Program-made: the position numbers and the translations under genes
Notes under the pieces: generated by a model
The model's database searches: none
What the model saw: only the letters and a program-made list of their open reading frames with translations
Told to the model about the DNA's origin: nothing
Shown here: in pieces, positions 19,844 through 41,500 of the stretch
Layout: each line of letters opens with the position of its first letter
How positions within the stretch are numbered: the first letter of the stretch is position 1
Assembly (NCBI RefSeq): GCF_019039215.1
Contig: NZ_JAHNZZ010000002.1
Coordinates: forward strand, 220,247-284,246
From: Bacillus sp. FJAT-29790
GTDB lineage: Bacteria > Bacillota > Bacilli > Bacillales > Cytobacillaceae
Length of the DNA: 64,000 bases
Direction: 5' to 3'

Positions 19844-19862
19844 AATTAATAAATAGAGAAAT

Positions 19863-19902
19863 AAAATTGCGTAATTCTTAAAAAATAGTATTACGCAATT
19901 TT
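19863..19902 (+). terminator. Intra-operon hairpin between binding protein and permease (copy 1)
   Basis: AAAATTGCGTAAT pairs with ATTACGCAATTTT. A homologous hairpin occupies the same place in the second transporter operon. It probably limits read-through or protects the binding-protein mRNA, giving excess binding protein over permease. Confidence 0.65.
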
Positions 19903-19924
19903 AGATTAATAAGGAGGTAGGTTA

Positions 19925-20581
19925 ATGGGATTTCGCTTAGATCTCATCGCAGAATATATTCCATTCTTTTTGAAAGGGACGTTGTTGACAATCGGGTTAT
20001 CGATCGTAGGGACTTTGCTTGGGACCGTATTGGGGTTAGGAATCGGACTAGGTAAAATGGCTAAGAAGAAGCCGATTGCATTTTTTTTCCATTGCTATAT
20101 TACATTTTTCCGTGGAACACCTTTATTTGTGCAATTATTTTTAGTTCATTTTGGGGTAGTTCCTTTTTTTATTGGACATACCAATGGGATTTTGGCCACA
20201 ATTATAGCTCTATCTTTAAATGCAGGAGCTTACATTGCTGAAATTTTCAGGGCCGGAATCCAATCCATTGATAAGGGTCAAATGGAAGCAGCCCGTTCTT
20301 TGGGTATGAATCATGTTCAAGCAATGAAAAATGTTATTTTGCCTCAGGCTTTTAAGAGAATGATCCCGCCTCTTGGGAACGAATTCGTTGTTCTTATAAA
20401 AGATTCTTCCCTTGCAGCAATTGTGGCAACTCCTGAACTTATGTACTGGGGACGGGCAATGGCTGGTAATTATTTCATCGTATGGGAGCCGTACATCACA
20501 GTCGCACTTATTTATCTTGTGTTAACTACTTCTATGAGTTTCTTATTAAATCGTCTTGAAAGAAGGTTGACAACAGAATGA
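19925..20581 (+). CDS. Amino-acid ABC transporter permease (copy 1)
   Basis: The 218-residue HisM/GlnP-type permease has about five helices. The N-terminal segment is [19 protein letters not shown], and the EAA loop that docks the ATPase reads [25 protein letters not shown]. It forms the membrane channel with its likely homodimer partner. It overlaps the ATPase gene by 4 bases (ATGA). It is closely similar to copy 2 at 28117-28773, so the two systems arose by duplication. Confidence 0.92.
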
Positions 20582-21300
20582 TTCAAGTGAAGAATTTAAA
20601 AAAATCTTTTGGCACTAATGAAATTTTAAAAGATATTAATGTAGATATTAAGCCTCGGGAAGTTGTGGTGGTTATTGGACCGTCAGGATCAGGAAAATCT
20701 ACATTCTTAAGGTGCTTAAATATGCTTGAATCGATTACAGGCGGACATGTTTTGATAGAAGGCATTGATCTAACTGACAAGAAGACAGACATTAATAAAG
20801 TAAGAACCGAAGTAGGAATGGTCTTTCAGCAATTTAATTTATTTCCACATAAAACCGTAATTGAAAATATTATGCTTGCCCCAATGAAAGTAAGAAATAT
20901 ATCTGCGCATAAGGCAAGGGAAAAAGGCCTTGAACTTTTACGCAAAGTAGGGCTTGAAGAGAAAGCGAATGTATATCCGGATTCATTGTCTGGCGGGCAA
21001 AAGCAGCGTGTCGCCATAGCGAGGTCTCTTGCAATGGAGCCGAAAATTATGCTCTTTGATGAGCCGACATCAGCATTGGATCCAGAAATGGTCGGAGAAG
21101 TACTAGAAGTAATGAAACAACTAGCTAAAGAAGGAATGACAATGGTTGTAGTGACCCATGAAATGGGATTTGCTCGTGAAGTTGGCGACCGTGTCTTGTT
21201 TATGGACGGAGGCTACATAGTTGAGGAAAATCAACCTAAAGAGATATTTGAAAATCCGCAGGAAGAAAGAACAAAAGCCTTCTTAAGTAAGGTTTTATAA
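20578..21300 (+). CDS. Amino-acid ABC transporter ATP-binding protein (copy 1)
   Basis: The 240-residue GlnQ/HisP-type ATPase has Walker [10 protein letters not shown] (about residue 35), Q loop [12 protein letters not shown], signature [16 protein letters not shown], Walker [13 protein letters not shown] and the switch His in VVTHEMGFA. It energises import through the adjacent permease. The copy at 28770 is almost the same protein. It overlaps the permease gene. Confidence 0.95.
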
Positions 21301-21653: not shown

Positions 21654-22886
21654 TTAAAACGCCCAGTCTCCATTACGGAAGACAGGCTCAGTTGTTCCAT
21701 CTTCTTTCACGCCGTCAATATCCATTTTGGCTGAGCCAATCATGAAGTCAACATGTGTTAAACTATCGTTTAAACCGTGCTCTTTTAGCTCATCGCTGGA
21801 CATCTGCTTCCCGCCTTCAAGACAGAATGCATAGGCACTGCCAATCGCAAGGTGGTTTGAAGCATTTTCGTCAAATAATGTGTTATAGAAAAGAAGGTTT
21901 GACTGAGAAATCGGCGAATTGAACGGGACGAGGGCAACTTCTCCAAGATAATGAGAACCTTCATCTGTGCTCACTAGCTGTTTTAAGATTTCTTCACCTT
22001 CTTCTGCCTTTACATCGACAATGCGGCCATTTTCAAATGTCAGTGTGAAGTTATCGATTATATTTCCGCCGTAGCTCAAAGGTTTCGTACTTGAGACAGT
22101 ACCATTGACGCCGGTTCTTAATGGAACAGTGAATACTTCTTCTGTCGGCATATTCGCCATAAATTCATGGCCCTTCTCATTCACACTGCCAGCCCCAACC
22201 CAAAGGTGTTTTTCAGGAAGCTCGATTGTTAAGTCTGTTCCAGGTGCTTTATAGTGAAGTTTTTTATATTTTTTACTGTTTAAGTAATCCACTTTTTCAT
22301 GCAAGGCCTCGTCATGTTTTTTCCAGGCTTCAACAGGATTTTCTAAGTCAGTACGTGTTGCTTTAAAAATCGCTTCCCAGAGCTTTTGTACCCGTGTTTC
22401 TGCGGGCTCATTCGGAAATACTTTATCTGCCCAAGCTGCAGAAGGTGCTGCAATAACTGTCCAGCTAACTTTATCGGACATGACAAATTTGCGGTATTTA
22501 GAAAGAGCTGTCCCAGCTGCCTTTTGGAAGTTGCTAATCCGCTCCGATTTGACCCCTTTTAAAAGATCAGGGCTTGCGGAAACAATCGACATAAATGCTG
22601 CACCATTTTCAGCAAGGGCTTCCATTTCTTTAGCACGCCATTCTGGATATTCATTAAATGCTTCATCTGGAGCTAAATCGTATTTCGTCTTAGTGACGGC
22701 ATCATCCGTCCAGTTAACAATCACATTATAAGCGCCTGCCTCATATGCCTTTTTGACAACAAGGCGGACTAATTCGGCTGAATCAAGAGTCGTATTAATA
22801 ACAAGTGTCTGGCCCTTTTGGACATTAACACCTACCTGAACAGCTAAATCCGCATATTTCTCTAAGTTCTTATGAAAATCAGTCAT
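21654..22886 (-). CDS. ampS: M29 family aminopeptidase (AmpS-like)
   Basis: The 410-residue protein matches M29 metallo-aminopeptidases. It has an N-terminal domain (FHKNLEKYADLAVQVGVNVQKG), then a catalytic domain with GTDLTIELPEKHLWVGAG, the FMANMPTEEVFTVP metal region, EGSHYLGEVALVPFNSPI, FYNTLFDENASNHLAIG and a final HVDFMIGS. These enzymes remove N-terminal residues from peptides using two Co/Zn ions. It lies on the same strand as the sigma-54 activator, 198 bases downstream. A broken second copy sits at 18607-18730. Its place suggests a link to peptides that supply the pathway's amino acid, but this is inference. Confidence 0.9.
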   Translation of the reverse strand: MTDFHKNLEKYADLAVQVGVNVQKGQTLVINTTLDSAELVRLVVKKAYEAGAYNVIVNWTDDAVTKTKYDLAPDEAFNEYPEWRAKEMEALAENGAAFMSIVSASPDLLKGVKSERISNFQKAAGTALSKYRKFVMSDKVSWTVIAAPSAAWADKVFPNEPAETRVQKLWEAIFKATRTDLENPVEAWKKHDEALHEKVDYLNSKKYKKLHYKAPGTDLTIELPEKHLWVGAGSVNEKGHEFMANMPTEEVFTVPLRTGVNGTVSSTKPLSYGGNIIDNFTLTFENGRIVDVKAEEGEEILKQLVSTDEGSHYLGEVALVPFNSPISQSNLLFYNTLFDENASNHLAIGSAYAFCLEGGKQMSSDELKEHGLNDSLTHVDFMIGSAKMDIDGVKEDGTTEPVFRNGDWAF

Positions 22887-23084: not shown

Positions 23085-24809
23085 TTATTTCTGGGTGCGA
23101 ACCGGCTTTTCAAGGCCAAGCTTTTTTATATGATACTGCAGGCTTTGCCGGGTAATTCCAAGTGATTTTGCAGCCTTAGATATGTTCCAATCCATTTGTT
23201 CTAATGTCTTTTGGACATAGTGTTCCTGAGCGTTCGTAAATAAGGATTTAAGGGGCTTGTTATTGATTTTTTTTTGATCATTCGTTTGATCTGTAAGATC
23301 GGAAAGGATTTTTCTTCTCATATAAGCTGGAAGGTGATCAACTTCAATGGCATGATCGGATTCATTCGCTCGTATAATCAAATTTTCGATTAAATGCTCA
23401 AGTTCCCGCGTATTTCCAGGCCAATGATATTGGAGTAGAATTGAAAACAATGCTTTTGAAAGATCCGGAACGGATTTGGTGAATTTCTTCCGATAAAACT
23501 CGAGGAAGTATTCGACAAAAAAGTGAATATCTTCTGTACGCTCCCTTAAAGGCGGGATGTAGAGGCTTGTATGAGCAATTCTGTAAAATAGATCAAGACG
23601 CATTTTTCCTTCCGAGATCATTTCCTCTGGGTCCTCGTTTGAGGCACTGATGACAGTACACTCCACAGGCGTAACTTCATTGGATCCTACTCTTCGAACG
23701 AAACGATCCTGTAATACTCGCATTAACTTTGATTGTAATGTTATCGGCATTGAGTTAATTTCGTCGAGAAAGAGAGTGCCGTCTTTTGCATATTCAAACA
23801 GTCCAATTTGGTTCGTTGCCCCAGTAAAGGCTCCTTTCACCGTTCCAAATAAGGTGCTTTCCAATAGGTTTTCAGGAATTGCCGCGCAGTTAATCGCAAC
23901 GAAAGGGCTCCCCGCTCGCGGACTGTGATTATGCATACTTTGCGCAAACAGTTCCTTTCCTGTTCCTGTTTCGCCAATTATTAGAACATCGGTATTATGA
24001 ATAGAAATATTTTGCGCTTCTTTTATTAAATTTTTTAATGCGAGGCTTTTGCCTTTAATATGGTCAAACGTAAAGATCGTTCCGTTTTTCAAATCCAATT
24101 TATCCTTATCGTCCATTTCAACAATTTGTCTTTTTTGCTCAATTGTTTGATGGAGCCGATCCTTAAGCCTAGATTCATTTGTACTTAGTGAAAAAACAGC
24201 AATCGTTTCTCCATCCTTTTGAATTGGAAATGTGCTGTAATTTACATACTTAGGTTTTCCGTTAACTGTCGAGTGTGCTCTATATCTAGAGAAAATAGGT
24301 TTTCCAGTCTTAAATGTGTGCTTGTGCTCGGAATTTTGCGGTTTATAATTATAGGCTGACCATAGATGTTTACCAATAACCTCTTGGCTATTTAATCCTT
24401 CCATTTTTTCCTGCGCTATATTATATAAGACAATCTCTCCTTCAGGATTACTCATCATTACCCCTTCATCCAGTGATTCGATAATCTTTTCAAGACAATA
24501 TAATCGGGCTTTCGAATTTGTTAATAAATTAGTTTTATCATCAATACATAAAACGATGTATTGATCGTCTGCAGGGAAAATTTTCACTTCAAATTGAAGC
24601 TTCTTTTGGCCAATTGTCATGCAAAATGTTTCATTATTTACAAAGCTTATTTCTTCGCAAGGGATAATTTCAGAAATATGTATGCCGGATATGACTTCTA
24701 TTGGGATTTGTGTATTGATATCAGTCCATACAACCTCATGTAGTTCATTTAATACGATAACACCGTCTACAAAACTTCTAATTAATGACCCGATTGATGC
24801 TGCAATCAA
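23085..24809 (-). CDS. PAS-domain sigma-54-dependent transcriptional activator
   Basis: The 574-residue enhancer-binding protein has an N-terminal sensory part with PAS-like segments (about residues 10-230, including EGEIVLYNIAQEKMEGL). The AAA+ domain follows: Walker A GETGTGKELFA, the sigma-54 loop GAFTGA, Walker B DGTLFLDEIN and a TPVECTVISASNEDPEEM stretch. A C-terminal Fis-type HTH reads ISKAAKSLGITRQSLQYHIKKL. The start is TTG behind AGGAGGGG. It is transcribed away from the first urocanase gene, which has a -24/-12 promoter, so it very likely activates the cluster in response to a small ligand or redox cue sensed by the PAS region. Confidence 0.93.
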   Translation of the reverse strand: MIAASIGSLIRSFVDGVIVLNELHEVVWTDINTQIPIEVISGIHISEIIPCEEISFVNNETFCMTIGQKKLQFEVKIFPADDQYIVLCIDDKTNLLTNSKARLYCLEKIIESLDEGVMMSNPEGEIVLYNIAQEKMEGLNSQEVIGKHLWSAYNYKPQNSEHKHTFKTGKPIFSRYRAHSTVNGKPKYVNYSTFPIQKDGETIAVFSLSTNESRLKDRLHQTIEQKRQIVEMDDKDKLDLKNGTIFTFDHIKGKSLALKNLIKEAQNISIHNTDVLIIGETGTGKELFAQSMHNHSPRAGSPFVAINCAAIPENLLESTLFGTVKGAFTGATNQIGLFEYAKDGTLFLDEINSMPITLQSKLMRVLQDRFVRRVGSNEVTPVECTVISASNEDPEEMISEGKMRLDLFYRIAHTSLYIPPLRERTEDIHFFVEYFLEFYRKKFTKSVPDLSKALFSILLQYHWPGNTRELEHLIENLIIRANESDHAIEVDHLPAYMRRKILSDLTDQTNDQKKINNKPLKSLFTNAQEHYVQKTLEQMDWNISKAAKSLGITRQSLQYHIKKLGLEKPVRTQK

Positions 24810-25110: not shown

Positions 25111-25126
25111 TGGCATAGTACTTGCA
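25111..25126 (+). promoter_or_regulatory. Sigma-54 (-24/-12) promoter of urocanase gene 1
   Basis: TGGCAT-N5-TTGCA has the invariant GG and GC at the correct spacing, with one deviation from TGGCAC. It lies 48 bases before the start codon. Confidence 0.88.
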
Positions 25127-25173: not shown

Positions 25174-26895
25174 ATGTCAAAACCAGAAATCTTATATTCA
25201 GTTAAAGCGCAAAGAGGACCAGAACTTCGTTGTAAGGGCTGGAGACAAGAATCTATTTTGCGGATGCTTGAAAACAATATGGAGAATGCTGAAAAACCAG
25301 AAGAGCTAGTAATCTATGGTGGAATCGGAAAAGCGGCTCGTAACTGGGAATCCTACCATGCCATCGTCAAATCATTAAAAGAGCTTGAAGATAACGAAAC
25401 ACTTGTCGTGCAATCAGGGATGCCGGTTGCGGTATTTAAAACACATAAATATGCGCCAACAGTTGTAATGGCAACGACAAATATTATGAAGGCAGACTGG
25501 CCAACTTTCTATGATTTACAAGATAAGAACTTAACGATGTATGCCAACTATACGGCTGCTCCTTGGGAATACATAGGAACACAGGGTGTTATCCAAGGCA
25601 CATTCGAAACATTATCAGCGATTGCACGCCTTTATTACAATGATTCCCTTGTTGGAAAAATCCTTTTAACAGCTGGTGCTGGTGGAATGGGCGGAAACCA
25701 AACGAGAGCGATGACAATGCATGGCGGCGTAGCGATTCTATGTGACTCGAATGTTGAAATTATCAACAGAAGAATTGAAAAAGGATTTATTGATTGTTTG
25801 GCAGATTCCTTGGATGATGCGATTGCGATGGCAAAACAACATGCAGCTGAAGGCAAACCACTTGGTGTAGCGGTTGTTGGAAATGCAGCTGATATTTTCG
25901 AAGAAGTTCTTGAAAAAGGATGGTTACCAGACATCTCAACTTCCATGACTCCAGGACACGATCCAATTTCCTACTTGCCAGCAGGTTATACGGTTGAAGA
26001 AGCGGAAAAGCTTCGTGATACAGATCGTGATCTTTATTTAGAAAAAGCACGCGAAACTATGGTTCGTGAGTTGAAAGCACTAATCAAATTTATGGACCTT
26101 GGTGTGCATTCATTTGAATACGGCACAAGCCACCGTAAAGAGTGTATCGATGCAGGCATGGATGAAAAAGAAGCAAAGCGTTTACCAGGTTTTGTAGCTG
26201 AATACCTGCGTCCGCTCTTCTGTGAAGGCCGCGGCCCATTCCGTTGGATCTGTCTATCAGGCGATGCAGAAGACTTAAGAAAAATTGATGATATGATTTT
26301 AGAGAAATTTAGTGATGACTATCTTGTAACGCGCTGGATTAAACTTGCGAAACAGCATATTCCAATTGAAGCATTGCCAGCTCGTATTTGTTACATGGGC
26401 TTTGGACAGCGTAAAGCATTTGCATTAGAAGTTAACGATATGATCCGCCGCGGCGAACTATCAGGTCCGGTTGCATTCTCACGTGATAACTTAGACTCTG
26501 GTTCGATCGTGAATCCGACTTTCGAATCTGAAAACATGAAAGACGGCAGTGACTTAATCTCTGACTGGCCGGTATTGAACGGACTTCTAAACGCTGTTGG
26601 CATGTGTGACCTGATCGCCCTTCAAGCGAACTACTCCATGGGCGAGGCTGTGCATACAGGTGTAACAATGATTGCGGATGGAACAGATGAGTCTGATATG
26701 AGATTAGAAGTCGCGATGACCGTTGACTCTGGAATCGGAGTTGTCCGCCACGCGCAAGCAGGTTATGAAATTGCCCAAGATGTGGCTAACGGGAAAGGGA
26801 AATTAACAAAAGAAAGCATTCAAATCCCATTATGGTGGTCACCGAAAGCGACATTTGGTCCGAAAGATTTAGAGAAAGAAGATGTGAAGGCGTAG
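25174..26895 (+). CDS. Urocanase-family hydratase, divergent (HutU-like copy 1)
   Basis: The 573-residue protein follows urocanate hydratase along its length: YGGIGKAARNWESYH, VQSGMPVAVFKTH, an NAD-binding GAGGMGGNQ, PLFCEGRGPFRWICLSGDAEDL, and Cys406 in PARICYMGFG, the counterpart of the conserved urocanase Cys. Three usual urocanase motifs are altered, however. YGNNIR reads YGTSHR, the glycine-rich HHGGGVG loop is replaced by QANYSMGEAVHTG, and TSAHD reads TPGHD. Orthodox urocanase hydrates urocanate to imidazolone propionate with NAD+. I infer hydration of a related but different imidazole acrylate. Copy 2 at 30306 differs at only a handful of residues. Sigma-54 control is likely. RBS TTAGGAGG. 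Confidence 0.85.
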   Translation: MSKPEILYSVKAQRGPELRCKGWRQESILRMLENNMENAEKPEELVIYGGIGKAARNWESYHAIVKSLKELEDNETLVVQSGMPVAVFKTHKYAPTVVMATTNIMKADWPTFYDLQDKNLTMYANYTAAPWEYIGTQGVIQGTFETLSAIARLYYNDSLVGKILLTAGAGGMGGNQTRAMTMHGGVAILCDSNVEIINRRIEKGFIDCLADSLDDAIAMAKQHAAEGKPLGVAVVGNAADIFEEVLEKGWLPDISTSMTPGHDPISYLPAGYTVEEAEKLRDTDRDLYLEKARETMVRELKALIKFMDLGVHSFEYGTSHRKECIDAGMDEKEAKRLPGFVAEYLRPLFCEGRGPFRWICLSGDAEDLRKIDDMILEKFSDDYLVTRWIKLAKQHIPIEALPARICYMGFGQRKAFALEVNDMIRRGELSGPVAFSRDNLDSGSIVNPTFESENMKDGSDLISDWPVLNGLLNAVGMCDLIALQANYSMGEAVHTGVTMIADGTDESDMRLEVAMTVDSGIGVVRHAQAGYEIAQDVANGKGKLTKESIQIPLWWSPKATFGPKDLEKEDVKA

Positions 26896-26913
26896 GGACT
26901 CATGGATAGAATA

Positions 26914-26948
26914 TAGAGATCCGAATAGTATTGGATCTCTACCATTCT
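26914..26948 (+). terminator. Terminator after urocanase gene 1
   Basis: TAGAGATCC pairs with GGATCTCTA around a 10-base loop, followed by CCATTCTTTT. An equivalent hairpin follows gene 2. Confidence 0.75.
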
Positions 26949-27186
26949 TTTAACATTATTCCTGTAAAAAACATTTGAATCCCAGCTAAACCATAGCCAA
27001 AAAAGAGTAATTACTATTCTAGTAGTGTATAATCATGCGAAAAAAATTATATTAAATTATCCTTGCATAAAGAAAAGGATAAATGTAAAATAAATTTGAA
27101 TCTGAATTTACAGAATATTTGGAACCCCACCTTGATTATTCAGGTTGTACTGTAATAAATATATTTAATCTAAAGGGGGCAATTAA
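26949..27186. other. Intergenic region before the second transporter operon
   Basis: No gene. Its last 60 bases resemble the region before copy 1 (AATAAA, TTTAATC, polyG RBS), showing shared ancestry. I found no -24/-12 promoter here. Confidence 0.4.
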
Positions 27187-28047
27187 ATGAAAAAGTTCAC
27201 ACTTCTAGCTATTGTTATGATTTTCTCTCTTATTCTAGGAGCATGTGGGACAAGCCAGTCTAGCGGCGAAAGTCAGACAACTGGTGGAAATCAAACCGCG
27301 GATGAAAATGAGAGTAAAGACCCAGGGTCAGAAAAGAAAAAACTTAAAATCGTAACAGATGCAAACTATGCACCATTTGTATTTTTAGATAAAGGTGAAA
27401 TGGTAGGATTTGATGTAGACTTTATGAATGCGGTTGCAAAAGAAGCGGGATATGAATTTGAAATGGTTAATGTTGGCTGGGACCCTTTATTTGTCGAGGT
27501 TAAAGGCAAGACTGCTGATCTAGGAATAAATGCGATTACGATAAATGATGATCGGAAACAAACATACGATTTTTCAGTTCCATACTATTTATCAACAAAT
27601 GAAATTCTAGTTCCTGAAGGCAGTGATATAAAAAGTGCTGCTGACCTAAAGAACGACAAGATCGTATCAGTTCTAGGCGGAACGACAGGGCAGGAAGCAA
27701 TTGAGGCCCTACTAGGCAAAAATCATAAGAATATTAAAAAATTCGATAATAATAATCTGGCAATTTTGGAGATGATTAGCGGCGGAGCTGATGCTGTTGT
27801 TGCGGACAACGCAGTAGTTGAAGAATACGCAAAAAATAATCCTAACCAAAAACTAGCTATAATTAAGGATGAGGAAGGCTTCGAGAATGAATTTTATGGC
27901 CTTATGTTTCCGAAAGGCAGTGAATATAAAGCCGATTTTGATGCAGCCGTTACGAAAGTTCTTGAAAACGGAACATATGCAGAAATTTATGAGAAATGGT
28001 TTGGTGTAGCACCTGACACAGATACGATACTAAAGCAACAGCAATAA
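27187..28047 (+). CDS. Polar amino-acid ABC transporter, substrate-binding lipoprotein (copy 2)
   Basis: The 286-residue paralogue of the protein at 19001 has a lipobox FSLILGACG (Cys about residue 20), a Ser/Gly/Asn linker and the family-3 binding fold (LKIVTDANYAPFVFLD, VGFDVDFMNAVAKE, FSVPYYLSTNEIL, EIYEKWFGV). It has drifted further from copy 1 than the permease and ATPase have. Differences around the ligand pocket (DANYAPFVFL against DAHYPPFQSI) suggest related but not identical ligands. The RBS AAAGGGGG is clear. Confidence 0.88.
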   Translation: MKKFTLLAIVMIFSLILGACGTSQSSGESQTTGGNQTADENESKDPGSEKKKLKIVTDANYAPFVFLDKGEMVGFDVDFMNAVAKEAGYEFEMVNVGWDPLFVEVKGKTADLGINAITINDDRKQTYDFSVPYYLSTNEILVPEGSDIKSAADLKNDKIVSVLGGTTGQEAIEALLGKNHKNIKKFDNNNLAILEMISGGADAVVADNAVVEEYAKNNPNQKLAIIKDEEGFENEFYGLMFPKGSEYKADFDAAVTKVLENGTYAEIYEKWFGVAPDTDTILKQQQ

Positions 28048-28057
28048 GCAGCAAAAC

Positions 28058-28096
28058 AAATTGCGTAACTCTTAGAGAATAGTTACGCAATTTTGG
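28058..28096 (+). terminator. Intra-operon hairpin between binding protein and permease (copy 2)
   Basis: AAATTGCGTAACT pairs with AGTTACGCAATTT, followed by a short T-rich stretch. It occupies the same place as the hairpin at 19863-19902 with compensating base changes (TAAT to TAACT). Confidence 0.65.
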
Positions 28097-28116
28097 TTTA
28101 ATTGGGGGGGAAATTA

Positions 28117-28773
28117 ATGGACTTTAGACTGGACATCATAGTAGAATATGTTCCTTTCTTTTTGAAGGGGACGCTCTTGACAATCGGATTATCGATTGCA
28201 GGGATTTTGATAGGGACAGTACTTGGATTAATCATTGGATTAGGGAAAATGACGAAAAATAAACCTATTTCATTATTCTTCAATTGCTATATTATATTTT
28301 TCCGTGGAACGCCTTTATTTGTGCAATTATTATTAGTCCATTTTGGTGTAGTGCCCATGTTAATTGGACATACAAACGGGATCGTAGCTAGCATCATTGC
28401 TCTTTCCTTGATTGCGGGTGCATATATTGCTGAAATCTTCAGGGCAGGTATCCAATCCATTGATAAGGGTCAAATGGAAGCAGCCCGTTCCCTAGGCATG
28501 AATCATGTCCAAGCAATGAAAGATGTTATTTTGCCTCAAGCCTTTAAGCGAATGATTCCACCCCTTGGGAATGAATTCATTGTTCTTGTGAAAGAATCCT
28601 CACTGGCGGCAATTGTGGCAACCCCTGAACTTATGTATTACGGACGAGCACTAGCAAACACATATTACCGCGTATGGGAGCCGTACCTCACAGCAGCACT
28701 TATTTATCTCGTGTTGACTACTACTTTAAGCTTTTTATTAAATCGTCTTGAAAGAAGGTTGGCAACAGAATGA
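28117..28773 (+). CDS. Amino-acid ABC transporter permease (copy 2)
   Basis: The 218-residue permease matches copy 1 along its length, with the same EAA loop ([25 protein letters not shown]). ATG at 28117 is chosen because the GGGGGGG RBS sits 5 bases before it; a TTG at 28102 lies before that RBS and would make copy 2 longer than copy 1. It overlaps the ATPase gene by 4 bases. Confidence 0.92.
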
Positions 28774-29492
28774 TTCTAGTAAAGAATCTAAAGAAATCGT
28801 TTGGGGAAAACGAAATTTTAAAGGATATAAATGTAGCCATTAAGCCTCGGGAAGTCGTGGTAGTTATTGGACCATCGGGATCAGGAAAATCGACATTTTT
28901 GAGGTGTCTAAATTTGCTTGAGTCCATTACTGGCGGTCATGTTACGATCGAAGGCACTGATATTACGGACAAGAAAACAGACATTAATAAAGTAAGAACC
29001 GAAGTAGGCATGGTATTCCAGCAATTTAATTTATTTCCGCATAAAACCGTCATTGAGAATATTATGCTTGCTCCGATGAGAGTAAGAAATATCCCTGCGG
29101 AGAAGGCGAGGGCAAAAGGAATTGAACTCCTTCGTAAAGTAGGGCTTGAAGAGAAGGCAAATGCTTATCCGGATTCGTTATCAGGCGGGCAAAAACAGCG
29201 TGTCGCCATTGCGAGGGCCCTAGCGATGGAACCGAAAATTATGCTCTTTGATGAACCAACCTCTGCATTGGATCCAGAAATGGTTGGAGAAGTGCTTGAA
29301 GTAATGAAACAACTGGCCAAAGAGGGGATGACAATGGTTGTTGTGACCCATGAAATGGGATTTGCCCGTGAAGTCGGTGATCGTGTTTTATTTATGGATG
29401 GCGGTTTCATAGTAGAAGAAAATATCCCTAATGAATTATTTGAAAACCCGCAGCAAGAAAGGACGAAATCCTTCCTAAGTAAAGTATTATAG
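28770..29492 (+). CDS. Amino-acid ABC transporter ATP-binding protein (copy 2)
   Basis: The 240-residue GlnQ-type ATPase has [37 protein letters not shown] and VVTHEMGFA. Its length equals copy 1 and most residues are identical, so the subunits might be interchangeable between the two transporters. Confidence 0.95.
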
Positions 29493-29506
29493 ATTGTTAA
29501 TATCTA

Positions 29507-29537
29507 ACATCGACTGAAATTGGGTCGATGTTTTTTT
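29507..29537 (+). terminator. Terminator of transporter operon 2
   Basis: ACATCGAC pairs with GTCGATGT, followed by seven Ts. Confidence 0.88.
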
Positions 29538-29624
29538 GAAGGCTGTTTTCTAAAATTTGTTGTTGTTTGCATGAACTGCAATATCGCGCTTATAGATCCG
29601 CTTGAACATTTTTTACGTACCGGG

Positions 29625-29845
29625 CAAATAGAACGGCTCTATAAGCCCTTAACCACGGTATTTCTTCATAAGATGTCCAATAGAACGGCTCTATAAGCCC
29701 TTAACCATGGTATTTCTCTATAAGATGTCCAATAGAACGGCTCTATAAGCCCTTAACCATGGTATTTCTCTATAAGATGTCCAATAGAACGGCTCTATAA
29801 GCCCTTAACCATGATATTTCTCTATAAGTTGTCCAATAGAACCAC
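29625..29845. repeat. Tandem array of a 52-bp repeat (four copies plus a partial fifth)
   Basis: Units beginning CAATAGAACGGCTCTATAAG start at about 29625, 29678, 29730, 29782 and 29834 (partial). The middle copies are almost identical, and each carries the near-palindrome ATAGAACGGCTCTAT. There are no unique spacers, so this is not a CRISPR array. It lies between the transporter terminator and the second urocanase promoter. The rest of 29538-30008 shows nothing else clear. Confidence 0.92.
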
Positions 29846-30019
29846 TTAAGGAGTCTTGAAAGCGGAATACGCGAACATCAATAGTTGTTCATAATTAAAA
29901 TCTCTATAGAATTAATACTTTGAAAACGGAATTCCCTTGAAAGATTAAAAGATCACAATTTAAGTTTTTTATTAAAAAAGTTTTTGAGGATATTGGATTA
30001 AGAAATTTAATAGTCTGCA

Positions 30020-30114
30020 TGCAAAAATTATCTGCACCCTATTAATGAAATCGTTTACAACCTTTTAGACAATAATTGTCGGAATACTGGAAAAGGTGCA
30101 AAAAACACCTGCGA
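30020..30114 (+). promoter_or_regulatory. Two candidate activator sites (UAS) upstream of urocanase gene 2
   Basis: TGCAAAAATTATCTGCAC (30020-30037) and TGCAAAAAACACCTGCGA (30097-30114) fit TGCAAR-N6-CTGCRM. They are 77 bases apart, and the second is 145 bases before the -24 element, against 79 and 148 for gene 1. The sequence between the sites is much less alike, so the sites look selectively kept. Confidence 0.6.
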
Positions 30115-30241
30115 TTAATTTTTTCTGAAATTATTTTTTTAGTAAAAGGAGAAGGAGTTTTTGCTGAGTGGTTTTCGAAAATAGTTATTAGAGGGCCCGT
30201 TTTTATATATTGTCAAAAAAATTGATTTAATTAGATAACAT

Positions 30242-30257
30242 TGGCACGAGACTTGCA
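30242..30257 (+). promoter_or_regulatory. Sigma-54 (-24/-12) promoter of urocanase gene 2
   Basis: TGGCAC-N5-TTGCA is a perfect consensus sigma-54 promoter, 49 bases before the start codon. The bases after it (ATATATAAAGTTAG) are the same as at gene 1. Confidence 0.92.
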
Positions 30258-30305
30258 ATATATAAAGTTAGAATCGCAATTACACTAATTTAGGAGGACA
30301 AATAC

Positions 30306-32027
30306 ATGTCAAAACCAGAAATCTTATATTCAGTGAAAGCACAGAGAGGCCCTGAACTTCGTTGTAAGGGCTGGAGACAAGAATCTATTTTGCGGATGCT
30401 TGAAAACAATATGGAAAATGCGGAGAAACCAGAAGAGCTAGTAATCTATGGTGGAATCGGAAAAGCGGCTCGTAACTGGGAATCCTACCATGCCATCGTC
30501 AAATCATTAAAAGAGCTTGAAGATAACGAAACACTTGTCGTGCAATCAGGGATGCCGGTTGCGGTATTTAAAACACATAAATATGCGCCAACAGTTGTAA
30601 TGGCAACGACAAATATTATGAAGGCAGACTGGCCAACTTTCTATGATTTACAAGATAAGAACTTAACGATGTATGCCAACTATACAGCGGCTCCTTGGGA
30701 ATACATAGGTACTCAGGGCGTTATCCAAGGCACATTCGAAACATTATCAGCGATTGCACGCCTTCATTACAATGATTCCCTTGTTGGAAAAATCCTTTTA
30801 ACAGCTGGTGCTGGTGGAATGGGCGGAAACCAAACGAGAGCGATGACAATGCATGGTGGCGTGGCGATTCTATGTGACTCGAATGTAGAAATTATCAACA
30901 GAAGAATTGAAAAAGGATTCATTGATTGTTTAGCAGATTCCTTGGATGATGCGATTGCGATGGCAAAACAACATGCAGCTGAAGGCAAACCACTTGGTGT
31001 AGCGGTTGTTGGAAATGCAGCTGATATTTTCGAAGAAGTTCTTGAAAAAGGATGGTTACCAGACATCTCAACTTCTATGACACCAGGCCATGACCCAATT
31101 TCCTACTTACCAGCTGGCTATACAGTAGAAGAAGCAGAAAAGCTTCGTGATACTGATCGTGATCTTTATTTAGAAAAAGCACGCGAAACAATGGTTCGTG
31201 AGTTGAAAGCGTTGATTAAATTTATGGATTTGGGTGTGCATTCATTTGAATACGGCACAAGCCACCGTAAAGAGTGTATCGATGCAGGCATGGATGAAAA
31301 AGATGCGAAGCGTTTACCAGGTTTTGTAGCTGAATACCTGCGTCCGCTCTTCTGCGAAGGCCGCGGCCCATTCCGCTGGATCTGTCTATCAGGTGATGCA
31401 GAAGATTTAAGAAAAATCGATGATATGATCCTAGAGAAATTTAGTGACGATTACCTTGTAACGCGCTGGATTAAACTTGCGAAAGAGCATATTCCAATTG
31501 AAGCATTACCAGCTCGTATTTGTTACATGGGCTTTGGTCAACGTAAGGCATTTGCATTAGAAGTAAATGATATGATCCGCCGCGGCGAACTATCAGGTCC
31601 AGTTGCATTCTCACGTGATAACTTAGACTCTGGTTCGATCGTGAATCCGACTTTCGAATCTGAAAACATGAAAGACGGCAGTGACTTAATCTCTGACTGG
31701 CCGGTATTGAACGGACTTCTGAACGCTGTTGGCATGTGTGACCTGATCGCGCTTCAAGCGAACTACTCCATGGGTGAGGCTGTTCATACAGGTGTAACAA
31801 TGATTGCGGACGGAACTGCCGAGTCTGACATGAGACTTGAAGTTGCGATGACCGTTGACTCTGGAATAGGGGTTGTCCGTCATGCACAAGCAGGTTATGA
31901 AATCGCACAAGATGTGGCCAACGGAAAAGGGAAGTTAACGAAAGAAAGCATCCAAATCCCATTATGGTGGTCACCGAAAGCGACGTTTGGCCCGAAAGAT
32001 TTAGAGCCGGAAAACGTAAAGGCATAA
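30306..32027 (+). CDS. Urocanase-family hydratase, divergent (HutU-like copy 2)
   Basis: This 573-residue protein differs from copy 1 at about seven positions (for example LHYND for LYYND, EKDAKR for EKEAKR, LAKEH for LAKQH, GTAES for GTDES, and the tail LEPENVKA). It has the same altered urocanase motifs. Stretches of identical DNA, one about 250 bases long, alternate with stretches carrying silent changes, as expected after gene conversion. RBS TTAGGAGG. It heads the run urocanase, HutI-like, M20 hydrolase, HutH-like, all on one strand. Confidence 0.85.
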   Translation: MSKPEILYSVKAQRGPELRCKGWRQESILRMLENNMENAEKPEELVIYGGIGKAARNWESYHAIVKSLKELEDNETLVVQSGMPVAVFKTHKYAPTVVMATTNIMKADWPTFYDLQDKNLTMYANYTAAPWEYIGTQGVIQGTFETLSAIARLHYNDSLVGKILLTAGAGGMGGNQTRAMTMHGGVAILCDSNVEIINRRIEKGFIDCLADSLDDAIAMAKQHAAEGKPLGVAVVGNAADIFEEVLEKGWLPDISTSMTPGHDPISYLPAGYTVEEAEKLRDTDRDLYLEKARETMVRELKALIKFMDLGVHSFEYGTSHRKECIDAGMDEKDAKRLPGFVAEYLRPLFCEGRGPFRWICLSGDAEDLRKIDDMILEKFSDDYLVTRWIKLAKEHIPIEALPARICYMGFGQRKAFALEVNDMIRRGELSGPVAFSRDNLDSGSIVNPTFESENMKDGSDLISDWPVLNGLLNAVGMCDLIALQANYSMGEAVHTGVTMIADGTAESDMRLEVAMTVDSGIGVVRHAQAGYEIAQDVANGKGKLTKESIQIPLWWSPKATFGPKDLEPENVKA

Positions 32028-32047
32028 TACACATAGAACATTGCATG

Positions 32048-32080
32048 TAGAGATCCAAGTAAGTTGGGTCTCTACCGTTC
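32048..32080 (+). terminator. Terminator after urocanase gene 2
   Basis: TAGAGATCC pairs with GGGTCTCTA (one G-U), followed by CCGTTCTTTT. It is homologous to the hairpin at 26914. Confidence 0.7.
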
Positions 32081-32225
32081 TTTTAAATTGCTAGATTTAT
32101 TACGATTTTTCGTATTATAAAAGAGTTCCCTCTTATTATTGGAATTCTTTAAAATAAAACGTGGTTTTGCACACGATTTTTCAAAAACTAAACTGTGCGC
32201 TTTCCTAAATGGAGGTATTGTAAAA

Positions 32226-33473
32226 ATGTCTGAAACAAAAGTGAAGGTAAAGGTTGATTTAGTAATCAGCAATGCTGCAGAAGCAGTTACTTGTGTAGGA
32301 GAAAGCATGGAGGATATCGGCGTACTAACATATGCCTGGATAGCTATCAAAGATGACAAAATTGTTGGCGTTGGATCGGAAGATGAGGTCAAAAACAAAT
32401 TTGACATTGAGCAATCGGATTTTATTGATGCAACCGGGAAAGTGGTTGCACCCGGGTTTGTAGACTCACATACCCATTTAGTTTTCTATGGGACTCGTGT
32501 CGAAGAGTATGCTGCTAAATTGACCGGAAAACCAGAAAAGTTAGAAAAGCTTGCTATAACAACAGGTCCGAATCGTACGGTTGAGCTTACTCGCAATACA
32601 CCGGCTGAAGAATTATTTGAACAATCAAAAAAACGTGTCATGTCGATGCTAGAGCATGGAATAACCACTATTGAAAGTAAAAGCGGCTACGGATTGACGA
32701 CAGAGAGTGAGATCAAAATTCTAGAAGTGGGCAGAAGGCTTGGGGAAGAGACACCACTTGATGTGTTAAATACATTTTTAGGAGCACATGGCTTTCCAGA
32801 AAATATGACAAAAAGTGAGTACCTTGACGTTATTATCAACGAAATGATCCCCCAAGTAGGTGAGCGCGGACTCGCAGAATTTTGCGATGTTTGGTGCGAT
32901 GAAGGCTATTTTACGGCTGAAGAATCAGAATTAATTTTGAAGGCTGGCCTAAAGTACGGTATGAAGCCGAAAATTCATGCAGACGCCTACTCATATATTG
33001 GCGGAACCGATTTAGCGGCGGAAATGAAAATGGTGTCTGTTGACCATTTAAATTACACACCTGTGGAAGTAATGGAAAAACTGGCAGAGGCAAAAGTTAC
33101 CGGCGTTCTAATGCCAGCATTAGATTTTGCTGTTGGCCATAAGCAGCCGTTTGATGCCCGGAAAATGCTTGATTTAGGTATGAACATCGCTTTGGCAACT
33201 GATCTCTGTCCAGCATGCTATACAGAATCGATGCAATTTGTTATCAACCTTGCCTGCCGATTGTATAAATTTTCAGTTGAGGAAGCCCTAAAGGCTGCTA
33301 CATACGGCGGAGCAAAAGCGCTTGATTTAGATGACAGAGGCGTAATTCAAGAAGGAAAATTAGCAGACTTGCAAATATGGGATGTCCCTACGTATAAGCA
33401 TATTGCTTATGAGCTAGGAACGAACATCGTAGAGACAGTAATTAAAAATGGAAAAGTCGTAGTAAATCGCTAG
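32226..33473 (+). CDS. Imidazolonepropionase-like amidohydrolase, divergent (HutI-like)
   Basis: The 415-residue metal-dependent amidohydrolase aligns with HutI. Metal ligands are kept (H82 and H84 in DSHTHLVF, H251 in KIHAD, D326 in LATD), as are H274 (SVDHL), R91, Y155 (SKSGYGL) and H188 (FLGAHGF). The Glu of the HADE motif, catalytic or substrate-binding in HutI, is Ala254 here. The GGGI loop and the NPGS turn are also replaced (AITTGPNRT; CPACYTES). Orthodox HutI opens the imidazolone ring to formiminoglutamate, so a differently substituted ring is likely here. ATG at 32226 follows ATGGAGG; an upstream in-frame TTG lacks any RBS. Confidence 0.82.
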   Translation: MSETKVKVKVDLVISNAAEAVTCVGESMEDIGVLTYAWIAIKDDKIVGVGSEDEVKNKFDIEQSDFIDATGKVVAPGFVDSHTHLVFYGTRVEEYAAKLTGKPEKLEKLAITTGPNRTVELTRNTPAEELFEQSKKRVMSMLEHGITTIESKSGYGLTTESEIKILEVGRRLGEETPLDVLNTFLGAHGFPENMTKSEYLDVIINEMIPQVGERGLAEFCDVWCDEGYFTAEESELILKAGLKYGMKPKIHADAYSYIGGTDLAAEMKMVSVDHLNYTPVEVMEKLAEAKVTGVLMPALDFAVGHKQPFDARKMLDLGMNIALATDLCPACYTESMQFVINLACRLYKFSVEEALKAATYGGAKALDLDDRGVIQEGKLADLQIWDVPTYKHIAYELGTNIVETVIKNGKVVVNR

Positions 33474-33656
33474 TTGAGTGAATTTCATAATGTATTAAAC
33501 CAAACCGAAAACGAATGAGATTATAGTTATTATCGTATTATTCTAGTTTAAGTGAACATAAGAATATTAACCTAAATAAACTGTTCGTTTTCAGTAAAAA
33601 AGTGCTTTATTAAATTCATTCAGTTTAAAAGATATTTAGAAAATGGAGGGAATCCA

Positions 33657-34823
33657 ATGGAAACAAAACAGGTTTCGACTGCCGCTGAAAAAGTAAATGC
33701 TGATCGCCTGCTAGATTTATTCCTTGAACTTGCAAAAATTAATGGTCCGAGTACGAAGGAGCAGCTCGTTGCAGATTATTTAATCAAAGCCTTGCCTGAA
33801 CTTGGATTTACATTTGAGTTTGATGAAGCCCATAAAAATTTTGGCGGTGAAGTTGGAAATTTAATTGCTTGGCGTGAGGGAACAGACTCAACGATCCCGC
33901 CATTATTTTTTTCGACACATATGGATACCGTGCTGCCAACAGAAGGATTAAATCCTGTCATTAAAGATGGAGTGATTCATTCGGATGGAACGACAATTTT
34001 AGGAGCGGACGATCGTGCGGCATTGGCAGCTTACTTAGAAGCCATTCGGGCAATTATTGAAAGTGGCGTTCCACACGGCCCAATAGAATTCATTTTAACA
34101 GTCAATGAGCAGCCAGGACTTGTCGGAGCAACATATATGGATTACAGCAAGGCAAAAAGTAAAACGGGATATATTTTCGACAGCAGCGGCGATGTCGGAC
34201 AAACCATTCTGAAAGGGCCATACAGCAGCCGGATTTGGATGGAAGTTGAAGGGAATGCTGCACATATTGCCCTAAATGCGGATGAAGGAAACAGTGCATT
34301 TCTTATTTCAGCTGAAGGATTGTTACAAATGCGACTCGGGACGATCGATGAAGAGACTCTTGCGAATATAGGGATTATTAATGGCGGGGAGCTGACATCA
34401 ATTATACCTGGGCGTGTAACGGTTGCAGGAGAAGTTCGAAGTTTTTCAAAAGAGAAACTTGATCAGCAGCTGAAGCATATGGGAGAAGTAATGCAACAAG
34501 CTGCTGAAAAAAAGGGCGGCAAAGTGAACATCAGAATTGAAAAAAAATATAGCGGATTTAATATTCCTGAAGACCATATTTTAACGAAAACGGTTGAAGC
34601 GGCTGCTCACAAAATTAACGTTAAATCGTATTTAACAGAAACATTAGGCGGTGCCGATACAAATGTGCTAAACGAAAATGGCTTAACTTGTTTGACACTT
34701 GGACTTGGTTTCCAAAACATCCATTCTTTCAGAGAGTGTATCAGCATTGAAAACTTAATCAATACAGGCAGATTAACGGCTGCTCTTATTGAGCAATGGT
34801 ATGTAAATCATAAAAAGGCATAA
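33657..34823 (+). CDS. M20 family metallohydrolase (PepT/YqjE-like), altered metal site
   Basis: The 388-residue protein has the M20 layout: STHMDTV (H88, D90), LGADDRAA (D118), general-base E151, D175 in IFDSSG, a dimerisation domain with the AAH motif and a final GGADTN and IHSFRE. The usual Glu-Glu pair reads E151-Q152, so a metal-ligand carboxylate is missing. M20 enzymes include tripeptidases, carnosinases and N-carbamoyl or N-acyl amidohydrolases. Lying after the HutI-like gene, where formiminoglutamate hydrolase would be expected and is absent, it may release glutamate from an N-substituted product. This is inference. Confidence 0.78.
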   Translation: METKQVSTAAEKVNADRLLDLFLELAKINGPSTKEQLVADYLIKALPELGFTFEFDEAHKNFGGEVGNLIAWREGTDSTIPPLFFSTHMDTVLPTEGLNPVIKDGVIHSDGTTILGADDRAALAAYLEAIRAIIESGVPHGPIEFILTVNEQPGLVGATYMDYSKAKSKTGYIFDSSGDVGQTILKGPYSSRIWMEVEGNAAHIALNADEGNSAFLISAEGLLQMRLGTIDEETLANIGIINGGELTSIIPGRVTVAGEVRSFSKEKLDQQLKHMGEVMQQAAEKKGGKVNIRIEKKYSGFNIPEDHILTKTVEAAAHKINVKSYLTETLGGADTNVLNENGLTCLTLGLGFQNIHSFRECISIENLINTGRLTAALIEQWYVNHKKA

Positions 34824-34941
34824 TCAAATAATGAATGATAAGCATTAGAGCATTAGCGGAATTTATGCAGGCGGAACATGATCATATTGGGATACACTTG
34901 TTCTAGATATTTATTTACCTTAATATTCCGTAATTTATATT

Positions 34942-34957
34942 TGGCGTAATTTATGCA
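34942..34957 (+). promoter_or_regulatory. Candidate sigma-54 promoter before the HutH-like gene
   Basis: TGGCGT-N5-ATGCA keeps the GG and GC doublets at the right spacing but departs from the consensus at two or three places. No TGCAAR-N6-CTGCRM site was seen upstream. It lies 66 bases before the start codon. Confidence 0.5.
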
Positions 34958-35022
34958 CTAGTTTTATAATGTTTTAGAATGACGAAATATTCAGTCGAAA
35001 ATCAAAGGGAGCTGGACATCAT

Positions 35023-36543
35023 ATGAAGAGCAGTGAAGCAGTCGATATAGAAATAGTTGAATTAGATGGATTTACATTAGACCGTCAAAAAGTACAAAAT
35101 GTTGTTAATGGCAGTGCAAAGGTTTCTATCCCGGAAGAAAGCTTATTAAGGGTTCGGGCAAGCCGGAATCGAATTGAAAAACAAATTAATGATGGAAAAA
35201 TCATATACGGTGTGAATACGGGGTTCGGAAAATTAAGTGACATTGAAATTGAAAAAGATGATATTGCAAAATTACAATTGAACTTATTGCGGGCAGATGC
35301 GGTTGGTGTCGGTGAACCACTTCCAATCCCTGTTGTAAGGGCAATGATGACGCTTCGTGCAAATGCACTCGCTAAGGGGTTTTCTGGAATTCGTGAAGAA
35401 ACACTCACGTTGCTAGTTGAAATGATTAATAAAGGAATTCATCCCATCGTTCCTTGTAAAGGTTCGGTTGGTGCAAGTGGAGATTTAGCGCCTCTTTCTC
35501 ATATTGCCATCGTGTTAATTGGCGAAGGAAAAGCAGAGTATAAGGGAGAAATTCTTTCAGGCGGAGAAGCATTAAAAAGGGCTGGCCTTACACCGGTAGC
35601 ATTAGAAGCGAAGGAAGGTCTTGCGTTAATTAACGGAACACAGGCAATGTCTGGTGTCGGAGTCATTGCTCTTAATGAAGCAGAGCGTGTCGGCCTTGCA
35701 GCAGATATGGCAGCATGCTTAACGATGGAAGCACTTAACGGCATTATTACTGCCTTTGATAGCGAATTATTAGCCGTTCGTCCGCATCCTGAACTAGAAT
35801 TTGTTGCATCAAGAATGAGAAAATGGCTCGAGGGCAGTAAACGAATCTCACATCAAGGAGAAATCCGTATGCAAGATGCGTATTCCATTCGTTGCATCCC
35901 GCAAGTGCATGGTGCATCTTGGCAAGCATTTAATTATGTAGAGGAACGACTAAAAGTAGAAATGAATTCTGCTACAGACAATCCGATTGTTTTGGAAAGC
36001 GGCGAAATTGTATCAGGAGGCCATTTCCATGGACAGCCGATTGCCCTTTCGATGGACTTTCTAAAAGTTGCAGCAGCAGAGTGGGCGAATATTTCAGAGC
36101 GAAGAACGGAACGTCTTGTTAACCCGCAATTAAGTGGCCTGTCGCCATTCTTAGCAGTAGATCCAGGTTTAGAATGTGGTTTGATGGTTCCTCAATATGC
36201 AGCGGCTGCTCTCGTTTCCGAGAATAAAGTTCTTGCCCATCCAGCAAGTGTTGACTCGATTCCAACATCTGCTAACCAAGAAGATCATGTCAGCATGGGA
36301 ACGATCGCATCACGCCAAGCTCGAGAAATCATTCATAATTCTGCTCGCGTCATTGCGATTGAAATGATTTGTGCTTCGCAAGCAATCTACTTGGAAAAAG
36401 CGGAAAACCAATTAGCACCGGTAACAAGAGACTTTTTAGAGAAGGTCCGAGAAATTTGTCCCCCACTGGAAAGCGACCGCGCGATCTCTGATCAGATGGA
36501 AGAGTTGGCACAGTTTATCTTACGAGAAGATGTATTAAAATAA
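35023..36543 (+). CDS. MIO-dependent ammonia-lyase, divergent (HutH-like 1)
   Basis: The 506-residue member of the histidine/phenylalanine ammonia-lyase family has Tyr62 in YGVNTGFG, MIO-forming ASG 151-153 ([14 protein letters not shown]), LINGTQ, CIPQVHG and [11 protein letters not shown]. Two positions depart from HALs. The Ser-His of the substrate pocket (SHACGVG in the orthodox copy) is Ala91-Asp92, and the Asn of GGNFHGQP is His334. It should still eliminate ammonia from an alpha-amino acid, but Asp92 suggests a side chain other than plain histidine. It is far from identical to the orthodox enzyme at 41383. RBS AGGGAG. Confidence 0.85.
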   Translation: MKSSEAVDIEIVELDGFTLDRQKVQNVVNGSAKVSIPEESLLRVRASRNRIEKQINDGKIIYGVNTGFGKLSDIEIEKDDIAKLQLNLLRADAVGVGEPLPIPVVRAMMTLRANALAKGFSGIREETLTLLVEMINKGIHPIVPCKGSVGASGDLAPLSHIAIVLIGEGKAEYKGEILSGGEALKRAGLTPVALEAKEGLALINGTQAMSGVGVIALNEAERVGLAADMAACLTMEALNGIITAFDSELLAVRPHPELEFVASRMRKWLEGSKRISHQGEIRMQDAYSIRCIPQVHGASWQAFNYVEERLKVEMNSATDNPIVLESGEIVSGGHFHGQPIALSMDFLKVAAAEWANISERRTERLVNPQLSGLSPFLAVDPGLECGLMVPQYAAAALVSENKVLAHPASVDSIPTSANQEDHVSMGTIASRQAREIIHNSARVIAIEMICASQAIYLEKAENQLAPVTRDFLEKVREICPPLESDRAISDQMEELAQFILREDVLK

Positions 36544-41368: not shown

Positions 41369-41500
41369 CAAGGAGGAACAAAATGTCTATTTTAACTGAC
41401 AACACTTTAACATTACATGAAGACAATAACGTACCAAGGGGGAAGGAAATGGTTACTTTATCTGGTCACACGTTAACATTAAATGAAGTGAAGCGGGTTT
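41369..41500 (+). repeat. 66-bp duplication of the hutH start region
   Basis: The segment from CAAGGAGGAACAAAATG (41369) and that from CAAGGGGGAAGGAAATG (41435) align with no gaps over 66 bases, covering the RBS, start codon and first 16 or so codons, including the shared TTAACATTA. Both starts are in one frame. Confidence 0.75.

Follow-up and report, generated by a model that had tools for sequence, protein, structure and literature searches.

A gene cluster of altered histidine-degradation enzymes in Bacillus sp. FJAT-29790, probably dedicated to N-tau-methylhistidine

The window analysed here is a 64-kb stretch of the genome of Bacillus sp. FJAT-29790 (contig NZ_JAHNZZ010000002.1, positions 220,247 to 284,246). 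Positions 25174-36543 of the window hold a cluster that, judged by its gene content and altered residues, probably degrades N-tau-methylhistidine via a copy of the histidine pathway, with a dedicated enzyme for each step (probability about 0.8). The cluster consists of two urocanase-like genes (uroA and uroB), an ATP-binding cassette (ABC) importer and HutI-, M20- and HutH-like genes. All are on the forward strand, facing a divergent sigma-54 activator gene on the reverse strand (Table 1). The co-directional enzyme set had been recognised in the initial annotation, and the open reading frames were confirmed at the positions given there. The pathway for a ring-modified histidine, parallel to the ordinary one, that was proposed there is still the best reading. 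The gene set, the fixed residue changes, the trees, the promoters and the coexistence with orthodox hut genes were obtained directly. All enzymes exceed the curated NCBIfam cut-offs for their families, with 646 and 650 bits for hutU, 381 for hutI, 317 for the PepT-like model and 660 for hutH. HutI2 may start at the TTG at 32139 or, likelier, at the ATG at 32226, which is preceded by GGAGG.

The residue names and roles used below (H83, E252, Y102 and Cys410) follow work on the Pseudomonas putida and Bacillus subtilis enzymes. The altered active-site motifs described earlier for each enzyme stood up to comparison with the orthodox copies of the same genome and with related loci: the H83-equivalent is Asp instead of His in HutH2, RDH has become RDN in the hydratases, HxDE is HxDA in HutI2 and an E-E pair is E-Q in the M20 hydrolase. 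The related loci come from a scan for UroB relatives, in which 80 of 170 confirmed matches were kept, giving 75 loci, 43 from Bacilli and 32 from other lineages. Length filters retained 82 of 83 urocanase, 67 of 68 HutI and 55 of 59 HutH rows. The urocanase change (H439N) is present in 82/82 rows, and so is the catalytic Cys. The E252-equivalent of HutI is Ala in 66 of 67 rows and Gly in the other one; the M20 pair is E-Q in 41/41 related loci, whereas the YqjE-like protein of the host genome has E-E. HutH2 retains the Ala-Ser-Gly triad that forms the methylidene-imidazolone (MIO) cofactor. The H83-equivalent is Asp or Cys in all 55 neighbouring lyases, with Asp in 38/38 from Bacilli and either Asp (9) or Cys (8) in the 17 others; the 55 include one MIO-less protein (L085), located 3 kb from a uro gene and possibly outside the pathway. 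Chance or sequencing error as the source of these changes was rejected, since they are common to related loci across phyla. A proposed contact between H83, zinc and histidine is mentioned in a published report (PMC11432326).

In the urocanase tree, the 34 cluster hydratases fall together in a 100/100 clade that excludes the 12 orthodox HutU rows, and 51 alignment columns are fixed differently in the two groups; UroA and UroB also have a loop two residues shorter than that of orthodox urocanase. The clade is sister (98/97) to thiourocanate hydratases plus one S-methyl-thiourocanate-hydratase-like protein. The tree is rooted at its midpoint for drawing only, has several long branches elsewhere and leaves out L132, L133 and L139. 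Among 151 genomes sampled evenly from the class, a hydratase call by bit score and length, plus the tree for one look-alike (G169), recognised the cluster hydratase solely in the window's own genome; because of this, the enzyme is regarded as scattered in the class, not general. A further divergent urocanase-like group of class genomes (L124, L125, L126 and L137; 546-784 bits on TIGR01228) is separate from the orthodox, thiourocanate and cluster hydratase clades.

The labels "cluster-linked" and "orthodox" in the HutI, HutH and formimidoyltransferase-cyclodeaminase (FTCD) trees were set from gene positions. The HutI and HutH trees leave out the partial L169 and L199, as well as matches for which no locus was fetched (such as G009's cluster lyase and HutI). 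The HutI split is clean (100/100), recovered in 100% of 200 bootstrap trees, although the bootstrap had not fully settled. In this set the E252-equivalent is Ala in 24/24 cluster-linked rows versus Glu in 16 and Gln in one of the 17 orthodox rows; the Tyr102-equivalent is lost in 23/24 cluster-linked rows, and a zinc-ligand Asp is replaced by Asn in 17/24, while the HutI2 of the window retains the Asp. The HutH tree is different: here, too, the H83-equivalent separates the groups (Asp or Cys in 24/24 cluster-linked rows, His in 19/19 others), but the cluster-linked lyases are not one clade. Those of Bacilli have ordinary Bacilli HutH as their sister group (100/99), and those of a Clostridium sp. 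and a Lutibacter sp. group among other HutH. Four label changes are needed, at least two of them forced by well-supported branches, so lyases joined the clusters repeatedly and the H83 change has at least two origins, the same site being altered each time. The expectation that the enzymes fall outside the orthodox clades thus applies to the hydratase and HutI, but not to HutH2.

Orthodox hut genes are present on another contig of the host genome, with hutU scoring 989 bits (646-650 for UroA and UroB) and hutI 506 (381 for HutI2). Since the genome has these genes and a further urocanase occurs in the genomes of 40 of 44 relatives, the cluster is a parallel pathway beside ordinary histidine degradation. 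These 44 genomes were drawn from the 75 loci, and the further enzymes are of the classic or of a long (about 680 residues) type, with some fragments; the four relatives in which none was found (G022, G025, G030 and G044) were reached from draft genomes. All 15 relatives' genomes searched for HutI and HutH copies have at least two HutI and at least two HutH-family genes. The initial annotation named, as evidence against its reading, a genome that lacks any other urocanase and grows on histidine through these genes; the host has another urocanase and another HutI. The absence of formiminoglutamase that it reported is correct for the window, but the genome contains a HutG-like arginase-family gene beside the orthodox hutI and hutU (178 bits, under the hutG cut-off of 229).

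The host genome has four HutH-family genes. The separate, orthodox-looking hutH noted earlier at 41383 is indeed there (41383-42942); it and L092:7349-8887 are further MIO-type proteins in which the H83 site keeps its usual His, and neither adjoins hutU or hutI. HutH4 adjoins acetate kinase and 2-hydroxyacid dehydrogenase genes. The orthodox hutU, hutI and HutG-like genes (L091:4205-13458; C1, about 2.789-2.798 Mb) are co-directional with an OpuAC-type (betaine-like) ABC importer and with a HutH homologue lacking the MIO Ala-Ser-Gly triad (GSVGY---LTH), matching HAL at 398 bits and ergothionase at 237 among PDB entries. By analogy with the ergothionase reaction, this homologue may eliminate trimethylamine from hercynine, feeding urocanate to the hut enzymes.

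Neighbours of the hydratase gene in the 75 loci were hutI-like (68), hutH-like (59), M20 (41), NhaC-type permease (30), Gate-domain permease (23), FTCD N half (19), FTCD C half (18) and amino-acid substrate-binding protein (14) genes; many contigs end near the cluster, and where a neighbour is absent the count is a lower bound. An M20 gene is present in 41/43 Bacilli loci and FTCD halves in 23/32 others, never both in one locus. The M20 gene lies directly behind hutI, the place of the FTCD genes in many non-Bacilli loci. Of 25 genomes searched for FTCD, it was found in 0/5 from Bacilli and 20/20 others, 14 of which have at least two copies, often one beside an orthodox urocanase and one in the hydratase cluster; it was not found in the host genome. 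The FTCD tree does not split cleanly: it requires two changes and places L218, labelled orthodox, among the cluster-linked sequences. The cluster M20 protein scores 317 bits on TIGR01883 (cut-off 274) but departs from the E-E pair, compared with 539 for the genome's own YqjE-like protein.

The pathway that we infer, in its substrate and isomer, step order and products, would run as follows. The ABC transporter would take up the substrate, from which HutH2, by MIO chemistry, would remove ammonia to give N-tau-methylurocanate. UroA and UroB, with NAD+ and the retained catalytic Cys of urocanase chemistry, would hydrate this to N-methyl-imidazolone propionate. HutI2 would cleave the ring at the bond between N-tau and the C=O, yielding N-(N-methylformimidoyl)-glutamate, and the M20 hydrolase would convert this to glutamate and N-methylformamide, the latter being the product reported for a published precedent. 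Loss of the ring-facing Glu in HutI2 may leave room for the methyl group.

The relatives bear on the nature of the ring modification. FTCD transfers a one-carbon unit at the formate level; given FTCD in the non-Bacilli loci, ring C2 should therefore carry no sulphur or oxygen, which argues against ergothioneine-type or 2-thio substrates and for an N-methylhistidine. N-methylation would then be the remaining option among known natural ring-modified histidines. The tau position is suggested by the 2022 work considered at the end of this text and by the loss of the HutI Glu that, by homology, faces the leaving ring nitrogen. There is about an even chance that in the non-Bacilli, mostly anaerobic-looking by name, the hydratase and HutI are partnered by a formimidoyltransferase and a cyclodeaminase of their own. 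The methylated formimino group would then pass to tetrahydrofolate, retaining the ring carbon as methenyl-folate and releasing methylamine in place of N-methylformamide; on this reading the lineages each recruited a histidine lyase, whose ring-facing His repeatedly changed to Asp or Cys.

Other substrates and step orders were weighed against this pathway. The most substantial competitor, though still unlikely, has the M20 enzyme act first, as a dipeptidase on balenine-, anserine- or carnosine-type dipeptides, with the HutG-like enzyme of the genome acting last. Beta-Ala-His dipeptidases are M20 enzymes, the cluster protein matches TIGR01893 weakly (54 bits) and an M29 aminopeptidase gene is nearby (21654-22886); the position of M20 right after hutI, which FTCD takes in many non-Bacilli loci, and the failure of the two to share a locus point instead to the fourth step. 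It is improbable that the substrate is N-pi-methylhistidine, from anserine, leading to N-methyl-N-formimidoyl-glutamate and N-methylglutamate. The residue changes mark lost contacts to ring nitrogens rather than which nitrogen is methylated, and both FTCD and M20 could handle that isomer, but the precedent reportedly concerns the tau isomer, and among the annotated neighbour clusters, which cover part of the neighbours, none was recognised as a gene for N-methylglutamate use. Slightly less probable again is a second hut set whose isozymes act on ordinary histidine and are tuned to a different condition. The passing of the hutH, hutU and hutI equivalog cut-offs, the sister position of HutH2 to ordinary Bacilli HutH and the resemblance of folate-linked clusters elsewhere to classic histidine fermentation would all suit isozymes; coordinated changes of ring-facing sites in every enzyme, the coexisting orthodox sets (urocanase in 40/44 genomes, HutI in 15/15) and the repeated H83 change in lyases joining these clusters would not.

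Of the substrates suggested in the initial annotation, methylhistidine is thus favoured, and thiohistidine and ergothioneine-related compounds were rejected. A 2-thio- or S-methyl-thiohistidine (ergothioneine or ovothiol related) is very improbable despite the sister relationship of the hydratase clades and an "FSRD" motif common to both. UroA and UroB score 608 and 610 bits on the thiourocanate hydratase model (NF058530, cut-off 930) and 645 and 646 on the S-methyl thiourocanate hydratase model (NF058531, cut-off 880), the catalytic Cys kept in every cluster row is missing from 5/5 thiourocanate hydratases, and the FTCD of relatives requires C2 at the formyl level.

Several points weigh against N-tau-methylhistidine degradation as proposed here. 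Taxonomy fully confounds the mutual exclusion of M20 and FTCD, as all five Bacilli genomes lack FTCD. FTCD clusters would also fit plain histidine, which the altered residues oppose. The M20 enzyme may rather serve as a dipeptidase, releasing methylhistidine from dipeptides of the anserine type, and a PF03069 formamidase to use N-methylformamide was not found in the host genome. Finally, MTTB-family genes near the clusters of some relatives are not accounted for by this pathway. These methyltransferase genes (PF06253) occur near the hydratase cluster in L061, L064, L065, L066, L072, L082 and L088; one of them scores 315 bits on TIGR02369 (cut-off 525) and is not clearly of the pyrrolysine type. 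Aconitase-X genes lie beside the hydratase in L070, L071, L074 and L086, several of which also have DUF126 and TRAP-transporter genes nearby; these four loci are possibly islands for several modified amino acids.

A separate -24/-12 promoter precedes each uro copy and a terminator-like hairpin follows it; the hairpin scan is weak by itself, as it gave 16 terminator-like sites in the region covered and 12.0 +/- 3.9 in shuffled sequences. The promoter motif TGGCA-N6-TTGC is found within 300 bases upstream of 45/50 Bacilli uro genes versus 12/642 other upstream stretches, and of 13/33 non-Bacilli uro genes versus 6/332. A linkage cluster of sigma-54 activators (55 proteins, perhaps lumping unrelated ones) is represented in 49/75 loci, 38/43 from Bacilli and 11/32 others. 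The PAS-containing activator would turn on the strong promoters before each uro copy. Six amino acids and 92 nucleotides separate UroA from UroB; with 79 codons that differ silently, both copies are under selection. In ten genomes with two nearby uro copies, the pair was closest to each other in DNA, compared with other fetched genomes, in six and tied in one; in the other three (L020, L041 and L077) it was not. Since the pairs are mostly closest within their own genome, repeated duplication or gene conversion, rather than a single ancient duplication, is indicated by the sequences.

Between the ABC genes and uroB, a 52-bp unit is repeated 4.2 times with 96% matches (29627-29842). A second amino-acid ABC importer (substrate-binding protein, permease and ATPase) lies upstream of the cluster at 19001-21300.

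Table 1. Coordinates (window positions) of the cluster features
Feature	Position	Strand	Basis
PAS + sigma-54-interaction activator, probable cluster regulator	23085..24809	-	Pfam PF00158 211 bits, PAS, HTH_8
uroA sigma-54 (-24/-12) promoter, TGGCATAGTACTTGC	25111..25125	+	motif search
UroA, N-methylurocanate-hydratase-like, first copy	25174..26895	+	ORF, profile scores, alignment, tree
Terminator-like hairpin after uroA, near-twin of the post-uroB hairpin	26914..26941	+	hairpin scan
Substrate-binding protein, polar amino-acid ABC family	27187..28047	+	PF00497
ABC permease	28102..28773	+	PF00528
ABC ATPase	28770..29492	+	PF00005
uroB sigma-54 (-24/-12) promoter, TGGCACGAGACTTGC	30242..30256	+	motif search
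UroB, N-methylurocanate-hydratase-like, second copy	30306..32027	+	ORF, profile scores, alignment, tree
Terminator-like hairpin between uroB and the hutI-like gene	32047..32075	+	hairpin scan
HutI2, imidazolonepropionase paralogue, HxDA replacing HxDE	32226..33473	+	profile score, alignment, tree
M20 (YqjE/PepT-like) hydrolase, E-Q replacing E-E; proposed N-(N-methylformimidoyl)-glutamate hydrolase	33657..34823	+	profile, alignment
HutH2, MIO-type ammonia-lyase, H83-equivalent = D	35023..36543	+	profile score, alignment, tree

Methylhistidines are end products of muscle-protein turnover and are excreted by animals; the distribution of the cluster points to bacteria that probably return them to the nitrogen and carbon cycle. 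As all three hut-like proteins pass the hut equivalog cut-offs, annotation would take clusters of this kind for ordinary histidine degradation, and Asp or Cys for H83, HxDA, RDN and E-Q offer simple diagnostic residues. The repeated, independent H83 change in cluster lyases amounts to a natural experiment in ring selection by histidine lyases. No account of the sigma-54 promoters, the repeated uro duplication, the repeated lyase recruitment or the folate-linked variant was found among the open-licence papers listed, and one may already have been published.

According to work by Beliaeva, Atac and Seebeck from 2022 (ACS Chem Biol 17:1989), Bacillus terra and other soil bacteria reportedly degrade N-tau-methylhistidine to L-glutamate and N-methylformamide. 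In the NCBI taxonomy, "Bacillus terra" is Siminovitchia terrae. Its locus L039 carries the cluster as regulator, uro, Gate permease, hutI, M20, NhaC-type permease and hutH, in that order, with proteins 92% (Uro), 76% (HutI), 83% (M20) and 84% (HutH) identical to those of the window. Because of this correspondence, the Bacilli cluster is probably a further case of the known pathway. The likeness to that pathway, as reported, lies in a lyase, hydratase, imidazolonepropionase and hydrolase that are hut paralogues. Unlike L039, which has one uro copy in the fetched stretch together with the two permease genes, the window has two near-identical hydratase copies flanking an ABC importer. With hutHUIG the cluster shares enzyme families, order of chemistry, the MIO motif, the catalytic Cys and most HutI contacts, but it differs in its separate hydratase and HutI clades, changed ring-facing residues, M20 in place of HutG and sigma-54 control. 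The hydratases described by NF058530 and NF058531 are the sister clade of the cluster hydratases, which the retained Cys and scores far below both cut-offs set apart from them. Folate-linked histidine degradation is approached by the 23 non-Bacilli loci in which FTCD halves replace M20, a type that the host genome does not have.

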